Of a stretch of DNA of 49,666 bases, positions 1 through 25,493 are shown in pieces. The translations under genes were made by a program, and so were the position numbers. The stretch spans positions 1-49,666 of the forward strand of contig JAHJDE010000061.1 of NCBI GenBank assembly GCA_018812525.1. Reading direction: 5' to 3'. The stretch comes from Gammaproteobacteria bacterium (GTDB taxonomy: Bacteria > Pseudomonadota > Gammaproteobacteria > Chromatiales > Chromatiaceae). Within the stretch, counting starts at the first letter, position 1; every line of letters begins with the position of its first letter. Below the pieces are notes generated by a model. That model saw only the letters and a program-made list of their open reading frames with translations. It made no database searches and was not told the origin of the DNA.

Positions 1-5
1 AAACT

Positions 6-134
6 GCAAGAACCTCTTGCGGTTCAGGGATGAACCGCCATTTTCAATGGCCTAAGCCATTGAAAATGAAGAAAACGAAAAATCGCATTTTTCGTTTTCG
101 CCTTGCAAAATGGTCAGGATGGCCATTTTGCAAG
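6..134. repeat. Chain of five abutting hairpins
   Basis: Five different inverted repeats follow each other with almost no spacer. They pair 6-11 with 15-20, 19-26 with 31-38 (8 bp, loop GGGA), 39-51 with 56-68 (13 bp perfect, loop CTAA), 71-83 with 87-99 (13 bp perfect, loop CGC) and 102-113 with 123-134 (12 bp perfect). The arms are unrelated to one another. A second chain at 24524-24638 contains a version of the third hairpin with compensatory arm changes. The chain sits about 150 bp upstream of pepA. I cannot assign a function; it is not a simple terminator because no T-run follows. Confidence 0.75.
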
Positions 135-286
135 TTCCTCACAAGCAATGAAGATCCGTTCTTCGACGCGCCCTGTCATGGGGCGGGTTCCAGGATTTGG
201 AAATCCGGTCGGGATCGGCTTTGGGGTAAACTGGACGCATATCCTAACGGATCGGAACCCTTCGCAAAACTTTGTCTGGAGTCTGC

Positions 287-24496: not shown

Positions 24497-24523
24497 TTCA
24501 TCCCAATAACCGCATTCCGCCGT

Positions 24524-24638
24524 GAAGGAACTCGAAAGGAGTGTTTTTCGATTTCCTTCATTTTCAATCGCTTGAAGGCGATTGAAAATGGCAGTGCATC
24601 CCTGCACTGCGCGGGAACCTCTATTTCTAGAGGTTCCC
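24524..24638. repeat. Chain of four abutting hairpins
   Basis: Successive stems pair 24524-24537 with 24546-24559 (14 bp, one mismatch), 24559-24571 with 24578-24590 (13 bp perfect), 24591-24598 with 24603-24610 (8 bp, loop TCCC) and 24613-24623 with 24628-24638 (11 bp, loop TTTC). The second stem reads CATTTTCAATCGC where the chain at the window start reads CATTTTCAATGGC, and its partner arm changes in step. It lies between folK and the inositol-phosphatase gene, about 55 bp before the latter's preferred start. Confidence 0.8.
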
Positions 24639-24692
24639 ATGTCCAAAGTCTGTTCGACAGGATTCAACTGGGATCTGCGCCAGGGTGAAGAG

Positions 24693-25493
24693 ATGCTGAA
24701 AGAAGATCTGGAATTTATCGGGGAGCTGCTGGCGCGGGTGGGGCGGGACGAACTCCTATCCCGTTTCCACCGGGTGGGCAGCCGGAGGAAGGCGGACGGT
24801 TCCTTGGTGACCGACGCGGATATCGCCTCGCAACGGGTGATCGGCGAGGCCCTGGCAGCACGCTGGCCGGGGACCCTTCTGCTCGGGGAGGAGATGAGCC
24901 GGGAAGAGCAGGAGGCAGCGATCGCCCTGACCGCTCTCCCCCTCTGGGTGCTCGATCCCCTGGACGGTACGACCAACTATGCGGCAGGGATACCCTTCTT
25001 CGCTATCTCCCTGGCCCTGATCGAGGGGGGCGAGGTCCGCTTCGGCATGGTCCACGACCCCTCTCGGTCAGAGACCTTTTTAGCTCTGAAGGGCGAAGGC
25101 GCCTGGCTCAATGGCGAACGCCTGGTCTTGGGCGGGGATTGTGAATCGGCACTGGGGGAATCGGTCGCCATGGTCGATTTCAAGCGGCTGGAACGGGGGC
25201 TGGCCACCAGCCTGGTCTGTGCGCCGCCCTACCGCTCACAACGAGGATTCGGCTCCGTGGCGCTGGAATGGTGCTGGCTGGCCGCCGGACGCGGCCATCT
25301 CTATCTGCACGGGGGGCAGAAGCTGTGGGACTATGCCGCTGGGGAGCTGATCCTGCGCGAGGCGGGCGGCGCCGTATCGGGTCAGGAGCAGATCCCCTTG
25401 ACGCTGGCCTCGCGGGAGGCCGTGGCGGCCTGTAACGATCAGCTGCTTCAGGAATGGCTCGCGTTTCTTAAGTTACGGAGAAATTCCCTGTAG
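24693..25493 (+). CDS. Inositol monophosphatase family phosphatase
   Basis: Magnesium-dependent, lithium-sensitive type phosphatase fold; members include SuhB, CysQ and histidinol-phosphatases. The 266 residues carry the metal motifs LLGEEMS, WVLDPLDGTTNYAAGIPFF and the late WDYAAGELILREAGGAVSG. I cannot separate inositol phosphatase from CysQ or a histidinol-phosphatase; SuhB-type residues for RNA polymerase binding cannot be checked. ATG 24693 has AGGG about eight bases upstream and gives the usual length. In-frame ATGs at 24582 and 24639 would begin inside or at the edge of the hairpin chain and are less likely. Confidence 0.85.
   Translation: MLKEDLEFIGELLARVGRDELLSRFHRVGSRRKADGSLVTDADIASQRVIGEALAARWPGTLLLGEEMSREEQEAAIALTALPLWVLDPLDGTTNYAAGIPFFAISLALIEGGEVRFGMVHDPSRSETFLALKGEGAWLNGERLVLGGDCESALGESVAMVDFKRLERGLATSLVCAPPYRSQRGFGSVALEWCWLAAGRGHLYLHGGQKLWDYAAGELILREAGGAVSGQEQIPLTLASREAVAACNDQLLQEWLAFLKLRRNSL

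Follow-up and report, generated by a model that had tools for sequence, protein, structure and literature searches.

The window, by which we mean the whole analysed stretch of 49,666 nt, contains two sets of consecutive inverted repeats, the first at 2-24, 19-38, 39-68, 71-99 and 102-134, the second at 24523-24560, 24559-24590, 24591-24610 and 24613-24638. Chains of this kind, defined as three or more perfect stems, each 8 bp or longer, inside 150 bp, occur twice in the window and not once in 100 dinucleotide shuffles; perfect hairpins of at least 8 bp number 25, against a mean of 6.8 and a maximum of 15 in 100 such shuffles. The hairpin chains of the window are real and above chance. The five and four consecutive inverted repeats that the preliminary description listed lie where it placed them, with one correction: the copy at the first site has lost its first 12 bases at the contig edge, and the ‘hairpin’ at 2-24, which overlaps the second one, is therefore an artefact of that edge. 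Its view of the hairpins as unrelated neighbours had to be abandoned, since in intact copies they are parts of one repeated element and follow one another in fixed order. The features of both sites are the following.

1..140, plus strand: E1-subfamily copy of the element with five hairpins; comparison with intact copies shows that the contig edge has removed its first 12 bases
1..16, plus strand: remnant of hairpin 1, consisting of the loop AAAC and the 3' arm TGCAAGAACCTC; the 5' arm GAGGTTCTTGCA, equal to the left terminal inverted repeat, is missing relative to intact copies
19..38, plus strand: hairpin 2, GCGGTTCA-GGGA-TGAACCGC; CsrA-type loop C-AGGGAT-G with GGA at 28-30
39..68, plus strand: hairpin 3, the co-varying member, CATTTTCAATGGC-CTAA-GCCATTGAAAATG
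71..99, plus strand: hairpin 4, GAAAACGAAAAAT-CGC-ATTTTTCGTTTTC; CRC loop kept across genomes
102..134, plus strand: hairpin 5, CTTGCAAAATGGTCAGGATGGCCATTTTGCAAG; AGGAT loop with GGA at 117-119
126..140, minus strand: GAGGAACTTGCAAAA in minus-strand reading, the terminal inverted repeat of the right end and partner to GAGGTTCTTGCAAAA, the left end of intact copies
from 141: right flank of the E1 copy, starting with ACAA
24516..24641, minus strand: E2, a diverged relative of the element, with hairpins 1-4; hairpin 5 not recognisable
24613..24638, minus strand: hairpin 1 of E2, GGGAACCTCTA-GAAA-TAGAGGTTCCC on the minus strand, adjoining an ATG at 24639
24591..24610, minus strand: hairpin 2 of E2, GCAGTGCA-GGGA-TGCACTGC on the minus strand; loop as in E1, stem compensated
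24559..24590, minus strand: hairpin 3 of E2, CATTTTCAATCGC-CTTCAA-GCGATTGAAAATG on the minus strand
24523..24560, minus strand: hairpin 4 of E2, degraded, with arms 24523-24537 and 24546-24560

Intact copies, aligned from the genome to which the window belongs (the own genome, G000; 3.5 Mb in 215 contigs), are 152 bp long and comprise five hairpins followed by TTCCTC. Hairpin 1 reads GAGGTTCTTGCA-AAAC-TGCAAGAACCTC, hairpin 2 GCGGTTCA-GGGA-TGAACCGC, hairpin 3 CATTTTCAATGGC-CTAA-GCCATTGAAAATG, hairpin 4 GAAAACGAAAAAT-CGC-ATTTTTCGTTTTC and hairpin 5 CTTGCAAAATGGCC-AGGAT-GGCCATTTTGCAAG, and the terminal inverted repeats of these copies are GAGGTTCTTGCAAAA and GAGGAACTTGCAAAA. The arm CATTTTCAAT[GC]GC is found 154 times in forward and 159 times in reverse orientation, with about 157 copies of the hairpin in the genome, and the E1 copies are nearly identical to one another. 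Since this arm sits within the first 75 bases in 18 of the 37 contigs among the matches listed, it appears that copies of the element broke the assembly at contig ends. The element is short, multi-copy and devoid of a transposase gene, as is characteristic of miniature inverted-repeat transposable elements (MITEs). An open frame crosses the copy in the window, and a coding role was considered and rejected, because the hairpin-3 loop varies in length among members (4, 5 or 6 nt) and these differences shift the frame. At two loci of the own genome (L072 and L079) the right half is replaced by TTTTTCC[AG]TCCTTTGGTCCGTAAACGGTACATCCCTGTACC, a form which is perhaps a mosaic or another subfamily.

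E1 and E2 are oppositely oriented, so that hairpins 2-3-4 of E1 match the minus-strand hairpins 2-3-4 of E2. A model of hairpins 2-4 (R1) scores E1 at 19-99 with 99.3 bits and E2, which is part of the R1 training set, at 24527-24610 with 82 bits. The compensating arm difference between the hairpins at 39-68 and 24559-24590, to which the preliminary description drew attention, is a real G/C swap. The best matches of E2 elsewhere in the own genome are mostly at 85-87% over 67 bases, and E2 also resembles a full copy (L169) in a genome of the same genus (G001). The ATG at 24639, next to hairpin 1 of E2, is in frame with an open reading frame (ORF) at 24582-25493, for which the GAGG in the hairpin 1 arm could be the ribosome-binding site; the gene at these positions may owe its start to an old E2 insertion.

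Among the 39 own-genome copies (of 63) for which both ends and flanks are available, 27 are bordered by a perfect 4-nt target duplication, compared with a mean of 1.1 when the flanks are re-paired. A relative of the same family (G033), whose element copies lie on one 4.05-Mb contig, shows the duplication in nine of the 13 copies with both ends found, from 17 loci, against 1.0 in shuffles. For one copy (L055) there is an exact empty site, in which CTATT adjoins GAAG at a gapless junction in uninterrupted copies of another dispersed repeat; of the 35 joined flanks no other gave a clear empty site. This second dispersed repeat (GATCTATTGAAGATCGGCCAAAGATGGCCTGAAGATGAG...) is present at L055, L027, L040, L076, L011, L044 and L062 and has been the landing site for one element copy.

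The element ends in G033, GGGCACCTTGAAAAATT and AATTTTTCAAGGTCCCC (GGGCACC... on the left and GGGGACC... on the right), recur around a transposase region of that genome (L206), where the right end differs by one base, the left/right asymmetry is retained and TTGA is duplicated. The transposase encoded there belongs to the IS5 family (NF033581, 202 bits at a cut-off of 140). A second insertion sequence in G033 (L200) has ends of this kind too and is bordered by a TTAA duplication, its transposase being in two pieces that score 73.8 and 113.9 bits against NF033581, each under the cut-off of 140. An insertion sequence with E1 ends was not found in the own genome, where neither of two DDE_Tnp_1 matches carries them; a related end, GAGCCTCTTGCAAAACTC, adjoins one of the two, a transposase fragment at a contig end. 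Within transposase loci the core structure was matched, weakly, in one of 13 (L196, 17.7 bits). The terminal inverted repeats, the 4-nt duplications, the empty site and the ends shared with IS5 elements together mark the element as a non-autonomous MITE of the IS5 type, and its mobility is well supported. They speak for ordinary transposition in trans and against an element that copies by folding, which the preliminary description had entertained. To judge by the shared ends, these IS5-family transposases are the probable agents of its mobilisation. At L110, in G026, GAGGTTCTTGCAAAA-type ends enclose a different interior and are bordered by what may be an ATCA duplication, which would make this another MITE sharing the E1 ends.

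A DNA search matched 13 of 55 genomes, the own genome included and G026 at the ends only. Model searches recovered the element from 64 of 369 sampled genomes of the host's class, in 48 of 272 genera (E 0.001), and from 43 of 398 sampled genomes of the phylum (E 0.0001), a set to which one family outside the class (f207) contributes 34; as these searches scored at most 12 (class) or 11 (phylum) candidates per genome, the copy numbers they give are floors. At least two named contigs, one of Methylococcus sp. STC_26 and one of an uncultured gammaproteobacterium, contain exact hairpin 3. DNA searches of plasmids and phages with L225 and L038, and of plasmids with L218, returned no match, and neither did one exact pattern in viral contigs. 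The core is paired with at least five kinds of end: GAGGTTCTTGCAAAA in the own genome, GGGSACCTTGAAAAA in G033, CAGGCTGTTGAAAAA in G030, G031, G100 and others, GGGAACCTCTGATT-like ends, the commonest in the multi-genome comparison, and GAGGGTGTCGCAAAA in G042. Even within one genus the ends differ, as G042 and G305 demonstrate (L107 versus L237). Since hairpins 1 and 5 incorporate the ends, a change of ends has also meant a change of these stems. A tandem array in G052 (L234, 1343-1746) repeats 124-bp units of hairpins 2-3-4-5 into a string of GGA-loop hairpins.

That the fold of the element is under selection is well supported by the covariation of its paired positions. In a sequence-only alignment (A1) of 37 hand-chosen members, taken from nine genomes and two named contigs, we observe 252 double-changed cells compared with 110.9 in shuffles. 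Pairing in this alignment is kept in 87-94% of cells for hairpins 2-4, in 45.4% for hairpin 1 and in 67.4% for hairpin 5; differing ends make the last two align badly, and support for their pairing comes from folds of each member alone, which yield five hairpins in 34 of the 37. When hairpins 2-4 of 35 members are aligned by sequence only, 149 double-changed cells stand against 49.9 in shuffles and 8 to 73 in slid controls. The members of alignments A2 (35) and A3 (20) were likewise hand-chosen, and A3 omits rows with a slipped hairpin-4 arm, among others. Alignment A6, whose 49 rows from 46 loci were aligned to the model structure and which consequently leans towards the model, contains 303 double-changed cells against 81.1 in shuffles, none of the 500 shuffles reaching the observed value; the slid controls give 31 to 55, and 95.2% of cells are paired. 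The 46 members represent one copy each from 44 genomes (36 genera) and two named contigs and, coming from 36 genera, are not all independent. Selection for structure, one of the explanations put forward at the outset for the compensating arms, is thus supported, with covariation exceeding both shuffled and slid controls in the sequence-only alignments and in the 46 members.

A feature that the first reading of the DNA overlooked, and that we think is the key to the function of the element, is the presence of GGA in the loops of hairpins 2 and 5. GGA lies within loop 2 in 39 of the 46 members, and the strict form CANGGANG (C-ANGGAX-G) in 33, counts that are biased upward because membership was decided by model R1, of which loop 2 forms part, or by resemblance to E1; the seven members without a loop 2 GGA are L117, L118, L127, L187, L238, L246 and L250. 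Hairpin 5 is outside R1, and its count, 37 of 46, is therefore free of model bias. Elsewhere GGA is found in loop 1 of one of 45 members, in loop 3 of three of 46 and in loop 4 of one of 46. In all these counts failures of the hairpin picker were scored as misses (L102 and L215, for instance, do have the hairpin-5 GGA). The 45 nt that follow the core contain C-AGGAX-G in 16 members and C-ANGGAX-G in 18, which makes 34 of 46, against two of 46 with either motif in a control stretch of 45 nt situated 200 nt further on.

The loop 2 columns of A6 (49 rows) have A in 48, a free N, G in 45, G in 47, A in 47 and a free X, followed by G in 49. On the other strand, in ten members folded, hairpins 2 and 5 display the complementary loops where they form, mostly of the TCC type and not GGA. 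The 40 full copies (of 63) of the own genome show no change in 240 cells of loop 2 against 3.7 expected at the mean rate, a weak contrast at a rate which is itself lowered by the picking of copies on hairpin 3; loop 5 of the same 40 copies has seven changes, all but one of them from T to A at position X. Loop 4 is kept as C-[AG]-C though without GGA, with 45, 49 and 44 of 49 rows agreeing in A6 columns 80-82.

Both loop forms have counterparts among known CsrA targets. Passages of PMC4005645 describe ANGGAX on a stem as the high-affinity CsrA/RsmE form, with N and X variable, and the AGGAX pentaloop in SL3 and SL4 of RsmZ; an excerpt of PMC7652899 gives the CsrA SELEX consensus as RUACARGGAUGU. 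Some members, among them L102 (GCGGTACAAGGATGTACCGC), contain ACAAGGATGT. We consider it fairly probable, though with real reservations, that these MITEs form a family whose RNA provides a module with two CsrA-binding sites, predicted from motif and fold to be hairpins 2 and 5. The two GGAs lie 86 nt apart, which exceeds the 10-63 nt between sites bridged by one CsrA dimer (excerpt of PMC7652899), unless hairpins 3-4 shorten the gap. The stem of hairpin 2, with seven or eight pairs, is longer than those of most SELEX hairpins, which have four or fewer contiguous pairs (same excerpt), and this counts against CsrA binding, as does the fact that hairpins 3 and 4 are without GGA and yet are conserved as much as hairpin 2.

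Retention of all core hairpins, including 3 and 4 with their loops free of GGA, and conservation of the CRC loop of hairpin 4 favour a rival reading in which the element is an ordinary MITE derived from IS5 and its RNA fold has some role other than CsrA binding, be it a nuclease barrier, a site for RNase III or RNase E, a decoy for Hfq/ProQ or for the ribosome (with a Shine-Dalgarno-like GGA), or an insulator conferring insertion tolerance. Effects of folded RNA, RNase III and RNase E have been described for other MITEs, as set out in sections of PMC10969869. Such a role does not, however, predict the near-fixed A, G, G, A with free N and X and a compensating stem, nor does it predict a second GGA loop in hairpin 5, whose stem follows the transposon ends. 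We regard it as unlikely, while giving it serious weight.

The possibility that the hairpins act in DNA, as cruciforms or single-stranded structures in the style of REP/RAYT or IS200/IS605, would amount to the copying by folding mentioned above. It would account for terminal hairpins that carry the element ends, and the own genome does contain seven Y1_Tnp matches, but the 4-nt target duplications, together with the empty site, largely refute it, since IS200/IS605-type transposition is not known to leave duplications of this kind or such an empty site. The match of the ends to IS5-family elements in the relative G033 and the confinement of the GGA loops to one strand add to the case against it, and we hold it to be very improbable. 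Neutral debris, that is, the copies of one young MITE with chance hairpins and a structure free of selection, could explain the near-identical E1 copies of the own genome, which may just be young. The same hairpin order and compensatory changes nevertheless recur in dozens of genomes, and such debris is hardly compatible with a covariation that none of the 500 shuffles reached and for which slid controls yield at most 55 double-changed cells against 303; we give this explanation next to no credence.

If the element is indeed a MITE with CsrA-binding RNA, an IS5-family transposase acting in trans would move it and leave the 4-nt target duplication, the terminal inverted repeats at both ends being placed inside hairpins 1 and 5 and the structured core of hairpins 2-4 between them. 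Its plus-strand RNA would fold into five successive hairpins and display GGA in loops 2 and 5, which, closed by a C-G pair, would provide the CsrA/RsmA contexts of an ANGGAX hexaloop or an AGGAX pentaloop, and host CsrA would bind the element RNA at these two hairpins. Any transcribed copy would endow its transcript with a CsrA-binding module, and many copies (about 157 here, besides the tandem units of G052) could titrate CsrA from other targets in the manner of CsrB/RsmZ RNAs. Transcription of the element and a benefit to it or to the host are presumed in this scheme. As a more tentative proposal, which could well prove wrong, we suggest a mobile CsrA-binding RNA whose docking hairpins are selected, whose ends are swapped for different IS5-family transposases and whose amplification rewires or titrates the host's global post-transcriptional regulator across many lineages of bacteria.

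The own genome encodes csrA with an open reading frame, and the gene is present in 56 of the 64 carriers, or in 54 of the 57 carriers with completeness of 90% or more and contamination of 5% or less. Three carriers in which completeness reaches 90% or more, G126, G156 and G228, yielded no csrA hit, and L214, the one copy seen from G156, retains both GGA loops; these cases weigh against CsrA binding. With csrA found in 48 of 55 relatives the gene is near-universal in the sample, and its presence in carriers accordingly says little. Crude ORF calls around 34 copies give copy and gene orientations of ++ in eight, -- in six, +- in nine and -+ in eight, with one neighbour in the remaining three, and place five of the 34 copies apparently within an ORF. 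Orientation is thus about even and shows no sign of host selection for sense transcripts, and selection on the element's own spread fits such random orientation better than host use does. In one copy with its flanks no sigma-70-like promoter was found, and the same stretch contains three terminator-like sites, one of them sense, at hairpin 2, against 0.7 in shuffles.

MITEs are usually regarded as passive leftovers of insertion sequences. Here the MITE body has the appearance of a conserved RNA on which a global regulator could dock, and roughly one in six sampled genomes of the class contains it. If CsrA binds, every insertion would directly alter the CsrA network, and the number of copies would tune the level of free CsrA; confirmation of binding would mean that a mobile element has spread CsrA docking sites through bacterial genomes. 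The element also offers a testable case of how a selfish element acquires a binding site for a host protein, and constitutes a structured RNA family absent from Rfam 15.

With known MITEs, as non-autonomous derivatives of insertion sequences, the element shares a length of about 152 bp, multiple copies, terminal inverted repeats, 4-nt duplications and, in one relative, ends in common with IS5. It is unlike them in that many bacterial families retain the same three-hairpin core with ends that vary by genome, in that both ends lie inside hairpins, and in that the fold is under selection. It resembles the CsrB, CsrC, RsmX, RsmY and RsmZ RNAs as a string of hairpins with GGA loops in the ANGGAX/AGGAX contexts known for RsmZ, whereas it is mobile and multi-copy rather than a single-locus gene, has two GGA loops per unit, has no promoter found in the one copy searched, and has no match in Rfam. 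At the gathering score of Rfam 15, no family was hit in ten element loci, the CsrB/CsrC/RsmX/Y/Z families included, and only a tRNA in the window; a permissive scan of positions 1-160 returned only hits far under the gathering scores. The Correia/NEMIS, ERIC and QMITE elements, among other MITEs, are comparable in having folded transcripts able to affect mRNA fate (sections of PMC10969869); those sections name promoters, IHF and RNase III/E, and CsrA has 0 occurrences in the text. No CsrA-binding MITE was found in the open-licence literature among the matches listed, and other papers could describe one. ‘CsrA’ and ‘miniature inverted-repeat transposable’ occur together in a single paper of that literature, the Rfam 12 paper, which treats another subject, and passages of PMC4853749 (on Thiomargarita MITEs), PMC4383904 and PMC5955585 contain nothing on such elements. 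The preliminary description knew of no named family with this chain form, and the Rfam scans and the literature agree with it among the matches listed. A MITE is a known kind of element; a MITE with a conserved CsrA-type RNA body appears, as far as we have seen, to be new.

REP and REPIN sequences with their RAYTs are similar to the element as abundant extragenic palindromes within one genome, and differ from it in that the element comprises five different hairpins in fixed order and has target duplications. Identity with a REP/RAYT system was rejected on the grounds of these duplications and of the Y1_Tnp genes of the own genome, beside which no cognate hairpins were detected: GAGG-type hairpins were not seen at any of the seven loci, and the end motif was absent at the six examined. 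Two near-perfect palindromes with 36-bp and 25-bp arms, unlike the element, lie near Y1_Tnp in the same genome, at L035 2709-2783 and L037 1445-1498.
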